The notes under the pieces: model-generated
The model's input: only the letters and a program-made list of their open reading frames with translations
Database searches by the model: none
What the model was told of the DNA's origin: nothing
DNA from: Myxococcaceae bacterium
GTDB lineage: Bacteria > Myxococcota > Myxococcia > Myxococcales > Myxococcaceae
NCBI GenBank assembly: GCA_017881265.1
Contig: JADGRA010000024.1
Location: 1-64,000, forward strand
DNA: 64,000 bases
Reading direction: 5' to 3'
Shown here: positions 5,664 to 59,664 of the stretch, in pieces
Layout of the letters: each line of letters opens with the position of its first letter
Position numbering within the stretch: the stretch's first letter is position 1
Position numbers and translations under genes: made by a program

Positions 5664-6704
5664 CTACACGAACGACGGAGGCAGCATGCCGCCGGTGCTT
5701 CCACCGTCCGGCGAGGGTGGCCCGCTTTGTCTGTCCGGGGGGCACGGCGTCTTCCGGGCCGGACAAGGCCCCGCCGGGCTGGTCCCGAGAATTGCTCCGA
5801 AGCCGGTGTAGTGCTCGACCCGGTAGCGCCGGTCGAAGAAGTGAGCGAGGAGCAGGCGCGTCCAGGACTGAAAGGCGAAGAGGCCGCCATACTCTTCAGC
5901 GGCGAGTTTCCGAAGGGCGCGTAGCCTCGGCCACGCAATGGCTGGAAAGTCATGGTGCTCGACGTGGTAGCCGACGTCGAACGACACGCGGTTGAGCGGC
6001 CCGTAGTAGGACACGGTTGGTTGGTCCGCTCGCATCGCGAAATGTTCGGACAGCCGCCGCGCACCCAAGGGGTGCGGCCCGAAGGCGAGCAGCCCGCTGA
6101 CGGCCAAAAAGCAAATCCCCTTGCCGCCGACGAGCCACAACAGCACCGCAGTGGCGAGGGTTTGGAGACACCAATTCAGCAACAGAAAGCCATCCCGCGG
6201 TACGTGGTTCGCTGAACGTGCGGGGTAGAAGAAACGACCCAGGCTGAAGGATGCGAACTTGCGGAGGGGACTTGCACCGACGAATGCGATTTCCGCCCGT
6301 GGCGGGGCCTGGGTGTCGCGGCCGTCCACCTCTCCAAGAAACTTGTGGTGCAGCAGGTGTTGCACTCGGAATTCAATGGCCACGGGGGCGAGGAGGGGCA
6401 GGTTTGCGACCAACATCCACAGCCTGTTGGCACGCGAGCCGCGGGCAACCAGATTGTGGGTTCCCTCGTGGATGAGGACGCCGAGCGCGTGGCCGACGAA
6501 CGCGCCCACGCCAAACGCGACTGCGAGCAGGGTCAACCAGGTGGTGTGGCGGACTGCCCAGGCCAGCGCCACGTCGGCCGCGACCAGGGCGACGATGAAA
6601 GCCTGCGACAGGGGATACGTCCCCTGAAGAGCGCGTACTTCGGGGTGGCTTGCGAGGATGTGCTTGTGCCGCTCGATGTGCCATCGCACTGGTGTGGCCG
6701 GCAT
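5664..6704 (-). CDS. DES1/DEGS-type sphingolipid desaturase homologue
   Basis: 346 residues from ATG 6704, with GGGAGGGA 8 bases upstream. It is an integral membrane di-iron desaturase with three histidine clusters: HEGTH (79-83), HLLHH (116-120) and HVEHH (247-251), plus HPLGARRLSEHF (211-222). Beyond the motifs it aligns by eye along its length with eukaryotic dihydroceramide delta-4 desaturase: the N-terminal 'H..IL..HPEV..L' segment, HHKFLGEVDGRDT (119-131) and SYYGPLNRVSFDVGYHVEHH (232-251). DEGS proteins introduce the 4,5 double bond or hydroxylate the sphingoid base. Transmembrane segments lie at about 35-50, 58-78, 95-112, 172-192 and 195-212. The last 40 residues are a Pro/Gly-rich tail not expected in the family. 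No sphingolipid synthase gene is adjacent. Acting on a sphingoid base is inference; another acyl substrate is possible. Confidence 0.85.
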   Translation of the reverse strand: MPATPVRWHIERHKHILASHPEVRALQGTYPLSQAFIVALVAADVALAWAVRHTTWLTLLAVAFGVGAFVGHALGVLIHEGTHNLVARGSRANRLWMLVANLPLLAPVAIEFRVQHLLHHKFLGEVDGRDTQAPPRAEIAFVGASPLRKFASFSLGRFFYPARSANHVPRDGFLLLNWCLQTLATAVLLWLVGGKGICFLAVSGLLAFGPHPLGARRLSEHFAMRADQPTVSYYGPLNRVSFDVGYHVEHHDFPAIAWPRLRALRKLAAEEYGGLFAFQSWTRLLLAHFFDRRYRVEHYTGFGAILGTSPAGPCPARKTPCPPDRQSGPPSPDGGSTGGMLPPSFV

Positions 6705-7024
6705 CGCCGCATCCCTCCCGAAGAGAACCCGGGCCCTCCGAGGGTAAACGCTAACCATTCTGCCTGAGGCATCGCAACCCAAAACAAAGGTGACCGCGCG
6801 GCCAGCCCTGGTAGTCACAGCGGCCTTCGGGTGTAACCGGGGCGAGAACCGAGCGTTCGCGTGGAGAGTGGCTCTCCAGCCGCGCAAGGGTCACCGGTGC
6901 GGGAGCAGGCGGAGGGCCTGCACGCAAACTACTCGACGGCGCAAAGATGGCCTTCTGCAGTCGCCCGGGGCGCCATGATCAAGTTCACGCATTTGTCACC
7001 CCGAACTGTCAGCGTGTACTCGCC
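6705..7024. other. Divergent promoter region between desaturase and pyruvate kinase genes
   Basis: About 320 bases with no supported gene. A small inverted repeat CCCTCCGAGGG (6734-6744) lies 30 bases upstream of the desaturase start and could be a regulatory site. Nothing else stands out. Confidence 0.45.
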
Positions 7025-8878
7025 ATGTCTCCACAGCCGTCCGTCGCAGAAGCTCGCTCTCAGGTGGAAGCGCTTCTGGGCGAGGTTGGGCGGGCGACGC
7101 CGACCGAAGGCGAGCTCGCCGCCATTGCCGCCGTACACCGGAAGGGCGCGGTGAACCTACGGCACTACCTCGCGCTCCGCGCTCATGACGTCCGGAGACT
7201 GCAGAACTCGCTCGCCGAATTGGGGTTATCGTCTCTTGGCCGTGCGGAGGGGCATGTGCAGGCGACTCTCCTCGCCGTCCATCGCGCGCTCACTCGCCTT
7301 CAGGGCGGGTCGGACGGCACGTACGCGCTTGTCGGGCCCAACTTCCAGGAAGCGCGTGCTGCGCTCGGCTCAAACGCCGATGCGCTTCTCGGACCGGCGC
7401 CGGAGGGACGGGCCGTCCGCGTCATGGTCACTGCGGACGCAAGCCTGGCGCAGAATGCCGACTCGGTCCGTGCGCTGGTGGAGCGCGGAATGACCTGCCT
7501 GCGCATCAACTGCGCTCACGACAGCGCCGAAGTCTGGACGCGAATCGCCGGACACCTCAGGAGTGCCGAGCAGCAACTCGGCGTGTCCTGTCGACTCCTC
7601 ATGGACCTCTGCGGGCCGAAGATTCGGACCGGCCCGCTCGAGCCCGGGCACGCCGTCGTGACGTGGAAGGTGCGACGCGACGGGTGCGGGCGGACGGAGG
7701 CTCCCACCCGGGTGTGGCTGGCGCCTCCGGGGGAGGAGGTAGTGCGGCCCGCGCCAGTCCTCACGTTCCCTCGGGTGTGGCTCGCGTCGCTTCGCGTCGG
7801 GGACGTCCTGCAGTTTCGGGACACACGCGGGCTCCGGCGTGAGCTTCGCATCCAAGAACAGGACGGGGACTCATTCCAGTCTGAAGCCGAGCGGCGTGCT
7901 TTCGTGGTGGAGAGTTGCGAGTTTCATCGCGCTGGCGTCGAAGAGGCAGTCTGTCCGGTGGGGCTCCCGCGTGCCAACGCGCCGCTTCAGCTCGCCATCG
8001 GCGATTCGCTCATCCTGACGCGGTCCCTCTCGCCCGGACACCCTGCGGTCGTCGATGCAGCCGGGCGGGTGCTCACCCCTGCTCGCATCGGTTGCACTGA
8101 GCCGGCCGTGTTTTCCTCGGTGAAACCGGGTCACCGTGTCCTCCTGGATGACGGAAAATTTGAGGCCGAGACGCTGCGGGTCGATCCGGAACAACTGGAG
8201 CTCCGCATCACCCGAGGCCCACGGCCCTCCGGAAAGCTGTCGAGCGAGAAGGGTGTCAACGTACCCGACACGCATCTGCACCTGCCATCGCTCGGGGAGG
8301 ACGACCGGCGCGACCTCGCGGTTGTCGTGAAGTTGGCGGACCTCGTTGGCATGTCCTTTGTGCAGAGTCCGGAAGATGTCCAGTGCCTACGCAAGGAAAT
8401 GGAGCGGCTTGGACGGCCCGACCTCGGCATCATCCTCAAGATTGAAACGGCTCACGCCTTTGCCTCGATGCCCTCGCTTCTCTGGGCAGCCATGGGGCAC
8501 GAGCGCGTCGGTGTGATGATTGCTCGCGGAGACCTTGCCGTGGAGTGCGGCTACCAGCGGCTGGCCGAGGTGCAGGAGGAGCTGCTCTGGATTTGCGAGG
8601 CGGCTCACCTTCCAGCGGTGTGGGCCACCCAGGTTTTGGAAGGCCTCGCCAAGACAGGCGTCCCCAGCAGAGCCGAAGTCACGGACGCCGCGATGGGAGA
8701 ACGTGCCGAGTGCGTCATGCTCAACAAGGGGCCACACATCCTCGATGCGGTCAGCGTCCTTGATGACATTCTGCGCCGCATGGAGGAGCACCAGTCGAAG
8801 AAGACGGCCCAGCTGCGGGCCCTCAAGTCCTGGCAGGTGAAGCCGGCCAGCCGGCCGCAGAGACCGCCATCGCCCTAG
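7025..8878 (+). CDS. Atypical pyruvate kinase-like protein
   Basis: 617 residues from ATG 7025. Pyruvate kinase transfers phosphate from phosphoenolpyruvate to ADP. The catalytic core is recognisable but displaced: RINCAHD (160-166, canonical RINFSHG), MDLCGPKIRTG (193-203), KGVNVPDTHLHLPSL (about 417-431), GMSFVQSPEDV, LKIETAHAF with the catalytic lysine (about 471), MIARGDLAVECG (about 497-508) and PSRAEVTDAAMGERAECVML. It differs from standard PykF/PykA (about 470 residues) in three ways: an N-terminal helical extension of about 130 residues, an enlarged and interrupted B domain (about 205-410), and no C-terminal allosteric domain. Activity is plausible because the core lysine and the ARGD loop remain, but the enzyme may lack allosteric control. 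A strong hairpin follows the stop. Confidence 0.82.
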   Translation: MSPQPSVAEARSQVEALLGEVGRATPTEGELAAIAAVHRKGAVNLRHYLALRAHDVRRLQNSLAELGLSSLGRAEGHVQATLLAVHRALTRLQGGSDGTYALVGPNFQEARAALGSNADALLGPAPEGRAVRVMVTADASLAQNADSVRALVERGMTCLRINCAHDSAEVWTRIAGHLRSAEQQLGVSCRLLMDLCGPKIRTGPLEPGHAVVTWKVRRDGCGRTEAPTRVWLAPPGEEVVRPAPVLTFPRVWLASLRVGDVLQFRDTRGLRRELRIQEQDGDSFQSEAERRAFVVESCEFHRAGVEEAVCPVGLPRANAPLQLAIGDSLILTRSLSPGHPAVVDAAGRVLTPARIGCTEPAVFSSVKPGHRVLLDDGKFEAETLRVDPEQLELRITRGPRPSGKLSSEKGVNVPDTHLHLPSLGEDDRRDLAVVVKLADLVGMSFVQSPEDVQCLRKEMERLGRPDLGIILKIETAHAFASMPSLLWAAMGHERVGVMIARGDLAVECGYQRLAEVQEELLWICEAAHLPAVWATQVLEGLAKTGVPSRAEVTDAAMGERAECVMLNKGPHILDAVSVLDDILRRMEEHQSKKTAQLRALKSWQVKPASRPQRPPSP

Positions 8879-8889
8879 AGGAAGCCAAG

Positions 8890-8906
8890 GGGGGATGAAA
8901 TCCCCC
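8890..8906 (+). terminator. Hairpin terminator candidate after the pyruvate kinase-like gene
   Basis: GGGGGAT (8890-8896), loop GAA, ATCCCCC (8900-8906): a perfect 7-base stem 11 bases after the stop codon. There is no T-run after it. Confidence 0.55.
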
Positions 8907-9113
8907 GCGTGACGCACGTGGTTCTGTCCGGCGAGGGAAAGTCCGAGACCATCGCCGATGATGAGGACATGCCGTCCGGGCATGGCAACCGCTAGGGCAA
9001 CGCCCGGTTCAGGACGAGGTCGCTGTACCGAGAGGTTGAGTTCCCGCGTCTTCAGCGCATCAGCTGCGGCGCGATGGACATACTTCTCCGCCCCATCGCA
9101 CGCGGCACTTCGC

Positions 9114-10772
9114 TCAGTGGTCTCGTGCGGCTTCGGTACCCCGAGTCCCACTGGGCGTGCTGGTGGGGGTCGCCTCCGGGAAGGTGAGCGTCCCGAGCAT
9201 GGCCGGACAGGAGTCTCCCACGGAGAAGCGACGCACGAGACGTCGCTCGCCCAGCGTGATGGTGACCTCGTAATCGCCCCTGGTGAGCTGCTCCAGGATG
9301 AAGCCGCCCTTCGGTCCTGTTTGACCGGATTGCAAGAGGCGCGTTCCCAGCAACTGGGCCACCAGGTGCGCGCCGGCAGCGGGTTGCCGCGGGGCGTTGA
9401 AGACCCGTCCGACGGCCGTGCAGGCCTTGTCGACCCGGACGGTGGTGTCGACGTTTCCGACAGCCGGGACCTCGATGAGGGCGGTGCCGACTCGTCCGTC
9501 ATCCGTCACCACGCGTACCGAGGTTTTGCCCTTGGGCTGGTCGATTGCCTTGAAACGGTCGCCGGCGAAATGAATGGGAGGTCCCGGGGGAAGCTGGCCA
9601 TTGAAGGGAAACGTCTGCAGTTGAAAACCGTTTGGCGGAGGCTGGCCGAGCACGCGCCCGGACACTTGGCCCTGCGCCTTGGCCGGCGTCACCGCTCCAG
9701 CGGGAGTGCCCGCGCGCCTCAGCACCTCCACTGAAGCCCCAGCGTGGTCGGTGGCGGCCCACTCAGCCAGAGCGCCGAGGGCATCCGTTTCAGGTGCCCC
9801 GGACGCGACTGCGGACCGTGCTTGCCGCAGCACCGTCCCTGTGGCGTCGACTTCCTCGACCATCACCCAGCGACGGTTTGCGGACGACTCGGTCTGGAGG
9901 GTGAAGAGGCGGCCCGCGCCGAAGAGTTTGGCGACCCGGGCGAGGTTGGCCGAGCGCTCGACGCCCGGCTCGACGCACGGTCCGCCGTCGGGGAGGAGGG
10001 AGCCCTCCACGCCGCTGGCGAACTCCACGGGAGCCACCAGCGCGGGCGGAGCTGGAATCCGCACGGTGCGGGCAAGGCTCCGGTGGCCAAAGTCGGCCTC
10101 GACTCGGTAGTCGCCTGCCGGAAAGTGATGGGACAGGGGCGCGCTTCCGACTGGGCACCCTCCGAGGTACACCTCAGCTCCGGCGGGGACGACCGCGATG
10201 TCGAGCCGGTTGGTGGGCACCTGAGCTTCTCTTACGCGGAGGCCGTCCACGAACTTCCGGAAGGTTGGCGGGTAGAGCCCTGTGTCGGGCTGGTACGTGG
10301 GTTCGACGCGCAGGATGGACACCAGGGCTGCTTCGGCAGCCGGCCCATCACTTGGAAGTTGCGCCTGCGCAAGCAGCGTCAGCAACTCGCGCTCTGCCTT
10401 CCAGCGCTCGTGCGACGGCGCGAGGCGCGTGACGTCGACCGCCAGTGCCTTGAGTTGTGACACTGCGGCGTCAACGTGGTGCGCGTAGAAATCCGTTCGA
10501 GCAGCCGTCAAAGCGCGCGACACCTCCTCCAGCGTTCGTTCGGAAAGACCGCCCAACGGCCGCGCGGTTTCCGCTTCGCTCTGGAGGGTGGGGCCCAGCT
10601 TCGGCTGGAGAAGCGCCCGAAACGCGCGCGCCGAGATGGCACTCGCCGCTGTCTCGCAGTGACCGGCGGCAATGACTGCCGCCCGGGTTGGCTTGGGCGC
10701 CTCGGGGCCGGGCGACGCCACCGACGGCAGCGCGCACGCTAACAGGGCTGCCATGGACCGAATGGGACGCAC
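9114..10772 (-). CDS. Secreted PEGA-domain protein
   Basis: 552 residues with an N-terminal signal (LLACALPSVAS, about 9-20). Residues about 30-185 are helical and TPR-like: LSERTLEEVSRALTAARTDFY, then repeated 'L..LA' helices and VEPTYQPDTGLYPPTFRKFV, a form common before PEGA domains. Residues about 195-250 form a PEGA unit (NRLDIAVVPAGAEVYLGGCP, then SHHFPAGDYRVEADFGHRS). Two Ig-like segments follow near the C-terminus (KTSVRVVTDDGRVGTALI; GGFILEQLTRGDYEVTITLG, carboxypeptidase-regulatory-like). PEGA proteins are surface or periplasmic and often accompany signalling or cell-envelope systems. Nothing here states a specific role. It converges with the pyruvate kinase-like gene 235 bases away. 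Confidence 0.75.
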   Translation of the reverse strand: MRPIRSMAALLACALPSVASPGPEAPKPTRAAVIAAGHCETAASAISARAFRALLQPKLGPTLQSEAETARPLGGLSERTLEEVSRALTAARTDFYAHHVDAAVSQLKALAVDVTRLAPSHERWKAERELLTLLAQAQLPSDGPAAEAALVSILRVEPTYQPDTGLYPPTFRKFVDGLRVREAQVPTNRLDIAVVPAGAEVYLGGCPVGSAPLSHHFPAGDYRVEADFGHRSLARTVRIPAPPALVAPVEFASGVEGSLLPDGGPCVEPGVERSANLARVAKLFGAGRLFTLQTESSANRRWVMVEEVDATGTVLRQARSAVASGAPETDALGALAEWAATDHAGASVEVLRRAGTPAGAVTPAKAQGQVSGRVLGQPPPNGFQLQTFPFNGQLPPGPPIHFAGDRFKAIDQPKGKTSVRVVTDDGRVGTALIEVPAVGNVDTTVRVDKACTAVGRVFNAPRQPAAGAHLVAQLLGTRLLQSGQTGPKGGFILEQLTRGDYEVTITLGERRLVRRFSVGDSCPAMLGTLTFPEATPTSTPSGTRGTEAARDH

Positions 10773-48135: not shown

Positions 48136-49728
48136 GTGAGCGAGCTCGACGTCAAGGCGACGCTGATGCTGATGGTGGGCCTGCTTTTGGTGGTGGTCCT
48201 GCTGGCGACCCTGGCCCGGCGCCTGGCCGTGCCGTACCCCATTCTCCTCGTCCTCGGCGGGCTGGGACTGGCGCTGGTCCCCCAGGTCCCGCAGGTGCAG
48301 CTCGACCCGGACCTCGTGTTGCTGCTCTTCCTGCCCCCGCTTTTGTACGCCGCCGCCTACGACATGTCCTGGCGGGACTTCCGCGTCCACAAGCGCGCCA
48401 TTGGCCAGCTCGCTATCGGGCTGGTGTTGGGGACTGTGCTCGCGGTCGGCTTCACCGTCCACGCGCTGGTGCCGGGCATGCCCATCGCGGTGGCCTTCGT
48501 GCTCGGGGCGGTGCTGTCGCCCACCGACGCCGTGGCCGTCGCGGCCATCGCCAGCCAGGTGGGGCTGCCGCGTCGCGTGGTGGCCATTCTCGAGGGCGAG
48601 AGCCTGGTGAATGACGCGTCCGCCCTGGTGGCCTACCGCTTCGCCGTCGCGGCGGTGTGCACCGGGGCCTTCTCGGTCGGACAGGCCGCCATCGCCTTCG
48701 TCTGGGTGTCGGTGGCCGGCGTCGCGGTGGGACTGGCCGGGGGCTGGGTCATCCTCCAGCTCACCCGCTTCATCCGGGACCCCTTCATCCTCATCCTCTT
48801 TTCCCTGGTGTGCCCGTACCTGGTGTGGTTGCCAGCGGAGGCCCTCGGCGTGTCGGGCGTCCTTGCCGCCGTGACGGCCGGGCTGTACTCCGGCTACCAC
48901 GCGCCCACGGTGCTGCGGGCCGAGGCGCGCCTGCCCGGCTATGCGGTGTGGGAAACCTGGGTGCTGCTGCTCAACGGGCTCGCCTTCATCCTGCTCGGGC
49001 TGCAGCTGCGCACCGTCGTGGCGGGTTTCGTCGGACACCAGCTGCTGTCGGTGGTGGCGCTCGCTCTCCCCATCGCGCTGGTGGTGATGGTGGTGCGCAT
49101 CGTCTGGATTTTTCCCACCGCCTACCTGCCGCGCGTCCTCATTCCCAGCATCGGCAAGAAGGACCCGATGCCGCCCACGTCCCAGCTGTTCATCATCGGC
49201 TGGGCGGGCATGCGCGGGGTGGTGTCATTGGCCACCGCGCTGGCCCTACCGTTCGAGAGTCGTCCCGGGGTGCCCTTCCCGTACCGGGCGGAAGTCATCT
49301 TCCTGGCCTTCGTGGTGGTGCTGATGACGCTGGTGGTGGAGGGCTTCAGTCTCGGGCCGCTCATCCGCGCCCTGCACGTGACGGACGGCGGGCGCCGGGA
49401 ACGCGAGGAACAGGAGGCCCGGTTGGCGACGGTGAAGGCGGGGCAAGCCCGGGTGCGCGCGCTCTTGGACGAACCGTGGCTGCCCCGCGCGCGCGCGGAG
49501 GCCCTGGAACAGTCACTCGAGGAGCGGCGACAGCGCCTCGAATCCAAGCTGGCCCGCGGCCCCGGCTCGGACGGGCGCAGTGGCGACGGCTACCGCCGGC
49601 TCATGCGCGAGCTGATTGAGGCGCAGCGCAGCGAGCTGGTGCGGCTCCGCAACGAGGGCCTTATTGGGGATGACGTGATGCACCGCATCGAGTCACAGCT
49701 GGACATGGAGGAGGCCCGCATCGCCTGA
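48136..49728 (+). CDS. CPA1-type Na+/H+ antiporter
   Basis: 530 residues from GTG 48136 (divergent from the MFS gene, 96 bases). About 12 transmembrane helices with the NhaP/CPA1 marks: LVLGGLGLALVPQVPQVQLD, LPPLLYAAAYDMSWRDFRVH, VLGAVLSPTDAVAVAAIASQ (the Asp of the ion site), ILEGESLVNDASALVAYRFA (Glu-Ser-Asn-Asp motif) and IIGWAGMRGVVSLATALALP. The cytoplasmic C-terminus (about 430-530) is a charged coiled-coil-like tail (ERRQRLESKLARGPGSDGRS). It exchanges sodium or potassium for protons. Confidence 0.92.
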   Translation: MSELDVKATLMLMVGLLLVVVLLATLARRLAVPYPILLVLGGLGLALVPQVPQVQLDPDLVLLLFLPPLLYAAAYDMSWRDFRVHKRAIGQLAIGLVLGTVLAVGFTVHALVPGMPIAVAFVLGAVLSPTDAVAVAAIASQVGLPRRVVAILEGESLVNDASALVAYRFAVAAVCTGAFSVGQAAIAFVWVSVAGVAVGLAGGWVILQLTRFIRDPFILILFSLVCPYLVWLPAEALGVSGVLAAVTAGLYSGYHAPTVLRAEARLPGYAVWETWVLLLNGLAFILLGLQLRTVVAGFVGHQLLSVVALALPIALVVMVVRIVWIFPTAYLPRVLIPSIGKKDPMPPTSQLFIIGWAGMRGVVSLATALALPFESRPGVPFPYRAEVIFLAFVVVLMTLVVEGFSLGPLIRALHVTDGGRREREEQEARLATVKAGQARVRALLDEPWLPRARAEALEQSLEERRQRLESKLARGPGSDGRSGDGYRRLMRELIEAQRSELVRLRNEGLIGDDVMHRIESQLDMEEARIA

Positions 49729-49740
49729 CGGCGCGGCGCG

Positions 49741-50940
49741 GTGGAACCCCTGCTCGTGGCGCGCACTGCTCGCTTCATTGTTTGGGGCCTTCTTCTGCTG
49801 GGGCTGGCCATGGGCTGCCGCAAGACGGAAGCGCCGCCGCCGACGGCGCGGCCCGTGGCGCGGCCCTTGACGCTGGAGGAGGTGAAGGGCCTGCTACCGG
49901 CGGACGTGCCTGACGCCGACGGCTGGGCCCGCGACCTCCGGGCCGCCTTGCTGCAAGCCGGGTTGCCGGCGGACGTGGAGCGCGTGTGCGGCGCGGTGGC
50001 CATCCTGCAGCAGGAGTCGGGCTTCCAGGTGGACCCGCCCGTGCCAGGCCTGGCCGACATGGTGCGCACGCGTCTGGATGAACTCGCCAGTAGCCTCGGG
50101 CCGCCGGGGAAGTCCGCGGTGCAGGCGCTTTTGGCAGAGCGCAAACCAGGGGACCGCCGCACCTTCGCCCAGCGGCTGCGGGGCCTGCGCACCGAACGGG
50201 ACCTCGACTTGCTCTTCCGGGACATGCTGGCTGCGGCCCATGCCAAGCACCCGGTGGCGTACCGGGCCGCGGCCCTCCTCGACGGCGTCTTTCGCAAGGC
50301 GCGGCTGGAGGACTTGAACCCGGTCGGTACCGCCGGGTCGATGCAGGTGGGGGCCCGCTGGGTGCTGACCCACGCCCCTGGCCAGTACGCGGACGCGGAC
50401 GCCGTCCGCGATGCGCTCTTCACCCGGGAGGGCGGGCTGCGCTGGGGCGTGCGGCGGCTCTGGGGGTACGAGGCCAACTACCCGCGGCCGCTGTTTCGTT
50501 TCGCCGACTACAACGCTGGCGAGTACGCCTCGCGCAACGCCGCCGTCCAGCGCGCCCTAGGCCGCCTCACCGGCCGCGTGCTGGCGGCGGATGGAGACCT
50601 GCTGGCCTACGACGCGCACGGCGAGCCCCGGGGGGAGGAGAGCGAGTCGCTGCGGGCGCTGTTGGCCTTCGCCCAGGCCACCCCGGACCTCAGCCTGGCC
50701 GACGTCCGGCGCGACGTGCGCCTCGAGAAGACGGCCGCCTTTGACAGCACGCCCACCTACCGCGCCCTGCAGCATGTCTACCAGGCCCGCTTTAGGACGG
50801 CGCTTCCTGTGGCCGAGCTCCCGGATGTCGAGCTGTCGAGCCCGAAGCTGAAGAGCCACTACACCACCGCGCGGTACGCGCGGGCGGTGAATGGGCACTT
50901 CCGGGAGTGCCTCGGCCGCAGCGAACCGCCGCCGCCGTGA
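49741..50940 (+). CDS. DUF1615 lipoprotein
   Basis: 399 residues from GTG 49741, 12 bases after the antiporter stop, so likely the same operon. Lipoprotein signal LLLGLAMGC (Cys about 25). The body matches DUF1615: LLPADVPDADGWARDLRAAL, ERVCGAVAILQQESGFQVDP and VPGLADMVRTRLDELASSLG, then NPVGTAGSMQVGARWVLTHA (a soluble-lytic-transglycosylase-like 'GSMQV' stretch) and RFADYNAGEYASRNAAVQRA. The QQESGFQ and YNAGEYASRN motifs recall the lysozyme-like SLT fold, so a peptidoglycan-acting role is possible; the family is unassigned. Confidence 0.85.
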   Translation: MEPLLVARTARFIVWGLLLLGLAMGCRKTEAPPPTARPVARPLTLEEVKGLLPADVPDADGWARDLRAALLQAGLPADVERVCGAVAILQQESGFQVDPPVPGLADMVRTRLDELASSLGPPGKSAVQALLAERKPGDRRTFAQRLRGLRTERDLDLLFRDMLAAAHAKHPVAYRAAALLDGVFRKARLEDLNPVGTAGSMQVGARWVLTHAPGQYADADAVRDALFTREGGLRWGVRRLWGYEANYPRPLFRFADYNAGEYASRNAAVQRALGRLTGRVLAADGDLLAYDAHGEPRGEESESLRALLAFAQATPDLSLADVRRDVRLEKTAAFDSTPTYRALQHVYQARFRTALPVAELPDVELSSPKLKSHYTTARYARAVNGHFRECLGRSEPPPP

Positions 50941-51011
50941 GGCGCCGTCTTCCCCCGCCGCAGGGAAGGCAGGCACTGCCGCCGAGGTGGTGTAGGGTGG
51001 ACGGCAAAGGT

Positions 51012-52268
51012 ATGCCCAGCGAGAGCGGTGTTTCAGCCTTCCGCGCGGTGCCGCGCACCGGCGTCATCTTCGTCACCACCGAGGCCCAGAAGCGTGGCTT
51101 CACCCTAGGCGACCCGTCCTGGTGCAACCTCGGCCAGGGGCAGCCGGACACCGGAGAGCTGCCCGGTGCGCCCCCGCGGGTCGGCAGCGTGTCCATTGAC
51201 CCAGGCGACCAGGAGTACGCCCCGGTGGCTGGCCTGTGGGAGCTCCGGGAAACCATCGCCACGCACTACAACCGTCTGTACCGGCGGGGACTGCCGTCGC
51301 AGTACTCGGCGGAAAATGTCAGCGTCTGCGGCGGGGGCCGGGCCGCGCTCACCCGGGCCGCGGCCAGCCTCGCCCCGGTCAACCTCGGGCACTTCCTACC
51401 CGACTACACCGCCTATGAGGAGCTGCTGGACGCCTTTAAGGGCTTCATCTCCATCCCCATCCTGCTAGACGCCGAGCGCGGGTATGAGTTCTCGGTGGAG
51501 GAGCTGCGCAAGGAGGTGCTGGGACGCGGGCTGTCCGCCCTCCTCTTCTCCAACCCCGCCAACCCCACCGGCAAGGTGGTGGGCGGCAGCGCCCTGGAGG
51601 CCTGGGTGCAGATGGCGCGCTCGCTGGACTGCGCGCTCCTCATCGACGAATTCTACGCGCACTACGTCTGGACCACCCCGGTGGCACCGCAGAGCGCCGC
51701 CGCGTACGTGCGGGACGTCAACCGCGACCCGGTGGTCCTCTTCGACGGCCTCACCAAGAATTGGCGCTACCCGGGCTGGCGCGTCACCTGGACGGTGGGC
51801 CCCAAGTCCGTCATCGACGCCGTGGCCAGCGCGGGCTCCTTCCTCGACGGCGGTGGCAGCAAGCCGCTGCAGCGCGCGGCCATCGCCCTCTTCGAGAAGG
51901 ACCACGTGGAGCATGAGTTGCAGGCCATCCACAGCGCCTTCCGGCCCAAGCGGGAGCGCCTTCTCGAAGGCCTCCGGGCCCTGGGGGTGGGGGTCCACCC
52001 GCCTCCCGAGGGCACCTTTTACGTCTGGGGGGACTTGTCCGGGCTTCCGCCCCCCCTGGCGGAGGGCATGGCACTCTTCCGTGCGGCGCTCGAGCACCAA
52101 GTCATCACCGTCCCCGGGGAGTTTTTCGACGTCAACCCGGGCAAGCGCCGCCGCGGGCGCGCCTCGCGCTTCCGCAACCATGCGCGCTTCAGCTTCGGCC
52201 CACCCATGGACGTGCTGGAGCGCGCCCTGGAGCGTCTCGGGGCGCTGGTGCGAGCGCGGGCGGCCTAG
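51012..52268 (+). CDS. Class I/II aminotransferase
   Basis: 418 residues from ATG 51012 with AAAGG upstream. A fold-type I PLP enzyme: NLGQGQPDTGELPG (N-terminal), GGGRAALTRAAASLAPVNLG, LLFSNPANPTGKVVGG, LIDEFYAHYVWT, the PLP-lysine in DGLTKNWRYPGWRVTW and the C-terminal RNHARFSFGPP with the substrate Arg. Substrate is unknown; it is similar to aspartate-aminotransferase-like proteins of the pyridoxal class I family. It follows the DUF1615 gene by 71 bases. The frame is open to 50907, inside the preceding gene, which argues for the downstream ATG. Confidence 0.9.
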   Translation: MPSESGVSAFRAVPRTGVIFVTTEAQKRGFTLGDPSWCNLGQGQPDTGELPGAPPRVGSVSIDPGDQEYAPVAGLWELRETIATHYNRLYRRGLPSQYSAENVSVCGGGRAALTRAAASLAPVNLGHFLPDYTAYEELLDAFKGFISIPILLDAERGYEFSVEELRKEVLGRGLSALLFSNPANPTGKVVGGSALEAWVQMARSLDCALLIDEFYAHYVWTTPVAPQSAAAYVRDVNRDPVVLFDGLTKNWRYPGWRVTWTVGPKSVIDAVASAGSFLDGGGSKPLQRAAIALFEKDHVEHELQAIHSAFRPKRERLLEGLRALGVGVHPPPEGTFYVWGDLSGLPPPLAEGMALFRAALEHQVITVPGEFFDVNPGKRRRGRASRFRNHARFSFGPPMDVLERALERLGALVRARAA

Positions 52269-58539: not shown

Positions 58540-59664
58540 GTGGGTCCGAACCTCATCGCCCTGGCCATCCCGGCCTTCTTCGTCTTCATCGGCCTGGAGC
58601 TGCTCGTCTCCTGGCGCCGCGGCGTCCGGGTGTACCGGCTGGCCGACGCGCTGGCCGACCTGGGCTGTGGCATCGGCCAGCGCGCGGTGCTGGTGCTTGG
58701 CGCGGCAGCGGTGTTAGGCGTCTACGCCTTCGTCTACCAGCACGCCCGGCTCGTCACCTTCCCAACGGGAAGCCTCTGGCCGTGGGCCTTTGCCGTCGTT
58801 GGGGTGGAACTCGGCTACTACTGGTGGCACCGGCTCTCCCACGAGGTCAATTTCCTGTGGGCGGTGCACGTCGTGCACCACCAGAGCGAGGACTACAACC
58901 TGGCCGTGGCGCTGCGGCAGGCCATTCTCTCGCCCGTCACCGTGCTGCCCTTCTACCTGCCGCTCGCGGTGCTGGGGGTCCCGGTGGTGCCCTTCGCGGT
59001 GGTGGACGCGCTGGTGACGCTGTACCAGTTCTGGATTCACACCGAACTCATCCGGCGCTGTGGCGTGCTGGAAGCGGTGCTGAACACCCCCTCGCACCAC
59101 CGCGTCCACCATGCGGTGAATCCGCAGTACCTGGACAAGAATTACGGCGGCACCTTCATCGTCTGGGACCGCTTCTTCGGCAGCTTCGCCCCCGAGCGCG
59201 AACCCTGCATCTACGGCGTCAGTCACCCGCTGCGCAGCTTCAACAGTCTCTGGGCTCAGGTGCAGCCCGTCGTGGCGCTGGTGGGGGAGGCCGCCCGGGC
59301 GCCCTCCCTCGGCGCCGCTCTCAGGCTCCTCACCGCTTCGCCGGCCTGGCGCCCGGCGTGGCTTGGCCCGACGGGAGAGCTGCGGGGCCTGCCCGGCGCC
59401 CTCCTGGCGAAGTATGACGTCCACCCGGGGGGCGCGCGCAGCGTCTACGTCCTCCTCAACTTCGCGGTCGTCATCGTCTGGGCCTTCAGCCTCGTCATGT
59501 GGGGGGAGCTTCTGCCTCTGCCCTGGCGGCTGGGGGCGGTGGCGCTGCTCCTGGTGAGCCTGGCCAGCCTCGGCGGCCTGCTCGAGCTGCGGCGCTGGGC
59601 GGTCCCGCTCGAGGTCGGCCGCTGGGTGGCGCTGGCCGCCGGCGGCGCGTTTGTGGTGCTGTAG
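58540..59664 (+). CDS. Fatty acid hydroxylase / sterol desaturase superfamily protein
   Basis: 374 residues from GTG 58540. An integral membrane di-iron oxygenase: HRLSHE (HX3H), HVVHHQSEDYN (HX2HH), and HHRVHHAVNPQYLDKNYGGT (HX2HH), with four or five transmembrane helices around them (VLVLGAAAVLGVYAFVYQHA; WPWAFAVVGVELGYYWWHRL). The family hydroxylates or desaturates lipids and sterols. Bacterial members of this length (about 370, with a C-terminal membrane block) often act on alkyl glycerol or fatty acyl substrates. The C-terminal part has two further membrane segments. Its stop precedes the next gene by 56 bases. Confidence 0.88.
   Translation: MGPNLIALAIPAFFVFIGLELLVSWRRGVRVYRLADALADLGCGIGQRAVLVLGAAAVLGVYAFVYQHARLVTFPTGSLWPWAFAVVGVELGYYWWHRLSHEVNFLWAVHVVHHQSEDYNLAVALRQAILSPVTVLPFYLPLAVLGVPVVPFAVVDALVTLYQFWIHTELIRRCGVLEAVLNTPSHHRVHHAVNPQYLDKNYGGTFIVWDRFFGSFAPEREPCIYGVSHPLRSFNSLWAQVQPVVALVGEAARAPSLGAALRLLTASPAWRPAWLGPTGELRGLPGALLAKYDVHPGGARSVYVLLNFAVVIVWAFSLVMWGELLPLPWRLGAVALLLVSLASLGGLLELRRWAVPLEVGRWVALAAGGAFVVL

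Follow-up and report, generated by a model that had tools for sequence, protein, structure and literature searches.

A DES-like membrane oxygenase gene of a Myxococcaceae bacterium belongs to a bacterial family linked to ceramide synthesis, within a rare and altered branch

Bacterial ceramide synthesis has been worked out only recently, and the later modification of the ceramide backbone in bacteria is little explored. Abstraction of hydrogen at a diiron center is an established step for the desaturase/hydroxylase superfamily. Of the eukaryotic enzymes, DEGS1 forms ceramide and DEGS2 additionally hydroxylates dihydroceramide at position 4 (PMC10499023); PMC5037126 sets the delta4 sphingolipid desaturases apart in a class of their own, without further analysis. 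For bacteria, the published trio consists of serine palmitoyltransferase (SPT), the acyltransferase bCerS (ceramide synthase) and the reductase CerR (PMC11087976 and PMC11324152). Another protein of the desaturase superfamily, Caulobacter CC_0202, is reported to act on bacterial sphingolipids (PMC11324152). No bacterial sphingoid desaturase appears in the available portions of PMC11334938 and PMC11765627, and our literature search, whose coverage was partial with most subscription journals outside it, gave no characterized bacterial DES/DEGS enzyme among the entries listed.

We analyzed a stretch of 64,000 nucleotides of contig JADGRA010000024.1 (the window) from a Myxococcota genome of the same family as Archangium. 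This placement, beside Archangium lansinium, comes from genome identity: genomes G104, classed as same family, and G196, which contains L059 of A. lansinium, give one and the same match at identical coordinates. The gene of interest is an open reading frame for 346 residues on the minus strand, with its ATG at 6704 and its stop at 5664, at the positions given in a preliminary description made from the letters alone. An ornithine cyclodeaminase family gene lies on one side and a pyruvate kinase gene on the other; no sphingolipid gene adjoins it, and a link to lipids is not visible in these neighbors. A gene of FA_hydroxylase type (PF04116, 105.7 bits) is located elsewhere in the window, at 58783-59184. 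The features of the gene are as follows.

5664..6704, minus strand: DES-like membrane diiron oxygenase/desaturase gene of the lineage named C below, 346 aa, stop codon included (ORF, Pfam, profile, trees, model)
6713..6719, minus strand: GGGAGGG, 8 nt before the ATG, by its sequence a possible ribosome-binding site
6612..6680, minus strand: N-terminal Lipid_DES-like segment, residues 9-30 (Pfam, just below cut-off)
6456..6470, minus strand: histidine box 1, HEGTH, residues 79-83 (H79 and H83 in 68/68 aligned sequences)
6345..6359, minus strand: histidine box 2, HLLHH, residues 116-120 (H116, H119 and H120 in 68/68)
6303..6326, minus strand: lineage C signature DGRDTQAP, residues 127-134, with a one-residue insertion and D132Q, common to P0001 (the window protein), L197 and L202
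6072..6074, minus strand: His 211, an additional conserved histidine (67/68)
6042..6044, minus strand: His 221, an additional conserved histidine (68/68)
5967..6011, minus strand: SYYGPLNRVSFDVGY motif, residues 232-246, preceded by E229P and containing N243D
5952..5966, minus strand: histidine box 3, HVEHH, residues 247-251, with N248V (H247, H250 and H251 in 68/68)
5667..5798, minus strand: C-terminal tail, residues 303-346, rich in Pro, Gly and Ser, unconserved and predicted disordered

The window protein scores 76.9 bits against the Pfam family FA_desaturase (PF00487), above the curated cut-off of 29.7, and has all three histidine boxes of that superfamily; the ten histidines conserved in our 68-row alignment (A3) are all kept. 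Its score against Lipid_DES (PF08557) is 18.7 bits, or 22 bits (E 6.8e-4) in a search of the whole genome, below the cut-off of 23, and of its two lineage relatives L197 lies over that cut-off (29.4 bits) and L202 under it (19.5 bits). The sole match over the cut-off in the whole-genome search is a gene on contig 47 (38.8 bits), and the third-best place reaches 10 bits. Of the nine FA_desaturase loci in this genome, just two match our DES-like profile A1 at E <=1e-30, namely the window gene and the one on contig 47. Two pairs of FA_desaturase genes on contig 39 of the same genome (G000), at about 48,958-51,286 and 78,043-79,919, are not DES-like.

The proteins for the profiles were gathered from related genomes, of which 22 out of 60 had a match at E <=0.001; 19 proteins were aligned. 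Profile A1 includes the window protein, and the fair score is that from the 18-row profile made without it, which gives 286.9 bits for the window protein as against at most 37.1 for the desaturases of the same set that lie outside the family. Human and Arabidopsis DES (both typed-in sequences, not database records) reach 354 and 382 bits with this profile, and the contig 47 paralogue 548. Judged by these scores, the window protein belongs to the DES-like family in the wide sense. The outcome that the preliminary description had named as speaking against its view, a place among ordinary acyl-lipid desaturases, is excluded by the gap in profile scores (287 versus <=37 bits). A carotene ketolase or hydroxylase was likewise considered and rejected, with matches that are weak and far below the cut-offs.

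The preliminary description had also claimed a likeness to DES1/DEGS that runs the length of the protein and not just through the histidine boxes, and this is what we find: residues 9-291 align with human DEGS1 (typed-in sequence) at 32.8% identity, and both motifs that it quoted are present, SYYGPLNRVSFDVGY at residues 232-246 and HHKFLG..VDG at 119-128. With the typed-in human and Arabidopsis DES sequences the identity is 33% over 285-287 residues. The window protein resembles eukaryotic DEGS1, DEGS2 and plant DES in the FA_desaturase fold, the three histidine boxes with two extra conserved histidines, the N-terminal Lipid_DES-like segment and the SYYGPLN core. However, the eukaryotic D-x-D after box 2 reads D-T-Q in the window protein, E229P and N248V are further exchanges, the conserved SR..R tail of eukaryotic DEGS is missing, the Lipid_DES score is under the cut-off, and the protein falls outside the eukaryotic clade. 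Because Lipid_DES stays under its curated cut-off and four canonical residues are missing, we do not file the protein as a dihydroceramide desaturase or a DEGS orthologue; by sequence it is a divergent relative that probably works alike.

An AlphaFold model of the window protein was made from the 68-row alignment, with a mean pLDDT of 85.2, values above 90 in most of the core and values below 50 in the tail. The best solved relatives in a fold search with this predicted model are chains of the membrane desaturase fold, namely 8xks_K (Z 19.4), the alkane monooxygenase AlkB (8f6t, Z 16.5, 3.7 A over 251 residues) and, with a weaker likeness, the stearoyl-CoA desaturase SCD1 (4ymk, Z 7.2). DEGS is not among the fold-search matches listed, which excludes nothing. 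A sequence search of the PDB with the window protein, at E up to 1, returned no match, so that it differs from AlkB and SCD1 in sequence.

Canonical DES proteins of the two other clades described below, A and B, carry D132, E229, N243 and N248, and the window protein has Q, P, D and V at these places. In alignment A3, from which several long or fused members were left out, three lineage C members can be set against 65 other proteins. Q132, P229 and D243 are found in all three, where the others have D, E and N, respectively, in 65/65; V248 is likewise found in all three, with N in 63/65 others, and is not unique to the lineage since the clade B protein L022 and the fusion protein L187 also have it. 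The insertion of G128 is common to the three as well. L202 is 58% identical to L197 and 44% to the window protein (the two relatives are 44-47% identical to it), and the patterns DG-x-DTQAP and QPTVSYYGPLN..SFDVG.HVEHHD are kept across this range of 44-58% identity. Because two relatives at 44-47% identity carry them too, the altered residues appear to be under constraint and not decaying; to judge from the alignment, lineage C looks like a group with a constrained, altered active site and not like a dying gene. What makes the window gene of interest is that its branch is distinct and conserved and that the active site has changed there. To judge by where they stand, beside histidine boxes 2 and 3, our guess is that residues 132, 229, 243 and 248 line the polar end of the substrate.

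The C-terminal tail, which the preliminary description had called unusual, is indeed so: it has no counterpart in L197 or L202, the two closest relatives, and is predicted to be disordered (pLDDT <50). Inspection by eye of the two remaining frames showed no homologous continuation. A frameshift or decay behind the odd tail is unlikely, given no continuation in other frames and altered residues common to two relatives.

Two maximum-likelihood trees were made, one of 82 rows with four outgroup rows and one of 78 rows without an outgroup; the eukaryotic DEGS rows in them are typed-in sequences and not database records. Clade A is large and bacterial and holds the contig 47 paralogue with proteins of Bacteroidota, Bdellovibrionota, Ignavibacteriota, Gemmatimonadota, Acidobacteriota and Myxococcota. 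Clade B unites eukaryotic DEGS and myxobacterial proteins that are nearly identical to one another (support 100/97 and 100/96) with a divergent set from myxobacteria and bdellovibrios. The window protein and L197 of genome G110 form lineage C (100/97 and 100/100), and L202 of genome G107, which is outside both trees, is its third member by sequence. The depth at which lineage C joins the others is uncertain because its branches are long. Forcing the window protein and L197 in with eukaryotic DEGS and the myxobacterial proteins of the 319-residue ORF changed the log-likelihood by -20.35 (p-AU 0.0104). The label 'eukaryote-type' given in the preliminary description must therefore be dropped, since eukaryotic DEGS pairs with other myxobacterial proteins and the window gene is rejected there by this test. 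In the phylogenetic check that it had proposed, the protein falls neither among ordinary desaturases nor in the eukaryotic DEGS clade, and its interpretation is supported in part. The gene is not of eukaryotic type; it represents a rare and altered branch within a ceramide-linked family of bacteria. Lineage C was recognized in at least three of the 195 Myxococcota genomes searched (G000, G107 and G110). The position of DEGS beside myxobacterial proteins in our trees bears on the origin of the eukaryotic enzyme; the Asgard, not myxococcal, signal for eukaryotic sphingolipid metabolism that is described in PMC12872458 argues against deriving a simple myxococcal origin of eukaryotic DEGS from these trees.

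The clade A paralogue on contig 47 is the more canonical of the two DES-like genes of the host and the window gene the less canonical one. The two proteins are of the same family, with 42% identity; unlike the window protein, clade A proteins keep the four residues, and the three members scored pass Lipid_DES (35.2, 41.1 and 50.8 bits). Contig 36 of the same genome has four genes on one strand, in the order SPT-like, GNAT-type, NAD-epimerase-type and a second GNAT-type. The best PDB matches of the SPT-like protein are the Sphingobacterium-type SPTs 3a2b and 8guh (7e-119), and its best NCBIfam model is SPT NF047600, at 508 bits under a cut-off of 640. The two GNAT-type proteins (bCerS-like) and the NAD-epimerase-type protein (CerR-like) have a homologous set in the Saprospiraceae clusters considered below, and the run matches the trio of PMC11087976 and PMC11324152. 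The search for spt and ceramide synthase genes that the preliminary description had advised was thus answered by an SPT-like gene, two bCerS-like genes and a CerR-like gene in one putative operon, and the absence of sphingolipid synthesis genes, which it had named as contrary evidence, would not apply. The genome also carries an FA2H-like gene, on contig 63, with 38-42% identity to its counterparts in the Saprospiraceae clusters. A bCerS match occurs in each of the three lineage C genomes, and in G107 and G110 the 1e-30 threshold brings up no second DES-like gene. No sphingolipid gene adjoins L197 or L202 within the stretches read.

Links of the wider family to ceramide were sought at the best 80 of 577 loci, the relatives being ordered by their similarity to the paralogue on contig 47, so that the sampling leans to clade A. 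In two Saprospiraceae among them, read with flanks of 8 kb, FA2H-like, SPT, bCerS and CerR genes form one run that includes the DES-like gene. One of these runs (L088) has overlapping gene ends, with bCerS at 6857-7999, DES at 7968-8993 and CerR at 8990-9982. The other (L134, 3777-14846) has FA2H-like, SPT, bCerS, CerR and DES genes, followed by one for myo-inositol-phosphate synthase and, at a greater distance, one for a CDP-alcohol phosphotransferase, a gene content that suggests inositol-phosphate ceramides. At a third locus (L093) a CerR-like ORF is just upstream of the DES-like gene, and at the other 77 of the best 80 of 577 loci SPT, bCerS and CerR are all absent within the 8 kb flanks. 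Ceramide synthase was queried for 50 of the best 80 loci, hand-picked to thin near-duplicates and including L088 and L134, which supplied rows of the query alignment itself, and matched in 50/50 at <=1e-30; nine of these matches, all Bacteroidota, are weak (1e-48 to 1e-71). Among 20 further regions, the bdellovibrio loci L178 and L179 have bCerS within about 1-7 kb, an adjacency that is not an unbiased count as both were picked since DES and bCerS already shared a contig, and at the Myxococcota loci L190 and L192 an FA2H-like gene adjoins DES.

A fusion was found in genome G072 (L187, 5858-8125), where one frame of 756 residues combines a Glyco_transf_21 domain (127 bits) with FA_desaturase and with Lipid_DES, which at 43.9 bits passes its cut-off. 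Its first part matches a solved ceramide glucosyltransferase over residues 27-388 (6.7e-37); it also matches the hopanoid glycosyltransferase model HpnI at 192 bits, under the cut-off of 310, and could be of HpnI type. In a bdellovibrio (L063), a homologue of this glycosyltransferase is encoded some 2 kb downstream of the DES gene, with both on one strand. At two other loci (L025, 1447-3204; L186, 5314-7236), DES-like domains stand behind an N-terminal stretch with weak, below-cut-off matches to ferritin-like or AurF/DUF455 families.

Co-occurrence was counted at thresholds of 1e-30 for both genes in Myxococcota and of 1e-60 and 1e-80 in Bdellovibrionota and Bacteroidota, with Fisher tests that ignore relatedness. 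In Myxococcota, bCerS is present in 36/38 genomes with DES versus 137/195 overall (p = 1.1e-4), in 28/28 versus 114/149 when good-quality genomes are taken, and in 18/19 versus 57/90 by genus (p = 0.001). The corresponding counts are 39/40 versus 99/191 for Bdellovibrionota (p = 3.9e-12), while Bacteroidota show no significant co-occurrence (19/22 versus 148/198, p = 0.30); the pooled figures are 94/100 versus 384/584 (p = 6.5e-13). The six genomes with DES and without bCerS are G024 and G160, both <90% complete, and G277, G388, G392 and G467. Operon, fusion and co-occurrence thus tie a widespread bacterial DES branch to ceramide genes, and these links, as read from gene content, point to ceramide as the substrate of the bacterial DES relatives.

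For the window enzyme we propose the following. It would be a diiron oxygenase rich in histidine and seated in the inner membrane, divergent from its relatives of the bacterial DES/DEGS branch. It would take in O2 and electrons and abstract hydrogen from a methylene that is saturated, with either a double bond or a hydroxyl group as the result. Its substrate would be the cell's own (dihydro)ceramide-type lipids from the SPT, bCerS and CerR set of contig 36, and the site of abstraction the sphingoid base near C4. The four residues exchanged together would probably make the form of the substrate, the position or the outcome unlike that of the contig 47 enzyme. Because of its kinship and of bCerS in all three genomes we infer a ceramide substrate for lineage C, and the position and type of reaction are similarly proposed from the family. 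To this reading, an inner-membrane oxygenase that desaturates or hydroxylates the cell's own ceramides near C4 with altered specificity, we would give a probability of roughly 0.55. A homologue acting on the organism's own sphingoid bases, as the preliminary description suggested, is likewise plausible. The gene stands on a rare branch whose active site has changed, and its enzyme therefore probably modifies the sphingolipids of the cell itself in a manner that has yet to be described. Going further, and tentatively, lineage C as a whole may be a DES subfamily that has been neofunctionalized, with its active site re-tuned (DTQAP, QPTVSYYGPLN, SFDVG, HVEHHD) and with a ceramide modification undescribed in bacteria or eukaryotes, standing beside a canonical DES in the genome of the window and being the sole DES-like gene found in the two others. 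Bacterial sphingoid-base desaturation or 4-hydroxylation becomes directly testable with these genes, and natural variants are available for asking which residues decide the outcome of the reaction.

What counts against a ceramide substrate is that the window gene has no sphingolipid neighbor, that its Lipid_DES score is below the cut-off, and that it is lineages A and B, not C, which supply the evidence from operons and fusion. Together with the changed signature, the first two of these would fit an enzyme that has left sphingolipids for another lipid, for example a sulfonolipid, a glycerolipid or a carotenoid, as would a weak local match to the carotene ketolase CrtW. However, the CrtW score of 18 bits is far under the cut-off of 350, L197 passes Lipid_DES, bCerS occurs in all three lineage C genomes and two of these lack another DES-like gene at the threshold used, and we consider such a departure unlikely. 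It is unlikely too that the window gene codes for an ordinary dihydroceramide delta4-desaturase, one whose four changed residues are immaterial and which is redundant with the copy on contig 47. The fold, the histidines and the SYYGPLN core are all the same, as that reading expects, but the residues exchanged are invariant or nearly so among the 65 other proteins, and the joint exchange of the four is confined to lineage C.

Quite improbable, in our estimate, is hydroxylation of the N-acyl chain of ceramide in place of the sphingoid base, in the manner of Caulobacter CC_0202. PMC11324152 does describe a PF00487-type 'DesA family' protein that hydroxylates the amide-linked acyl chain of Caulobacter sphingolipids; on the other hand, our Caulobacter control genome has no Lipid_DES match even at E 10, and on that ground CC_0202 is probably of another subfamily. 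Moreover, DES-like genes adjoin an FA2H-like hydroxylase, which is the enzyme expected to do acyl 2-hydroxylation. A recent acquisition of the window gene from a eukaryote, which its general similarity to DEGS might bring to mind, is hardly credible, as its nearest relatives are myxobacterial and placement with the eukaryotic proteins is rejected.

A separate observation concerns five other myxobacterial loci (L021, L023, L024, L032 and L033, of genomes G014, G029, G015, G007 and G028, respectively). Their DES protein, 314 aa long from its ATG, groups with eukaryotic DEGS and is 46-50% identical to the typed-in human and Arabidopsis sequences. It is 95-98% identical across genera, as compared with 84-89% for the other DES-like genes of such genomes, and in the one locus checked the GC content of the gene is below that of its surroundings. 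Transfer of this gene between domains, or among myxobacteria, is possible.
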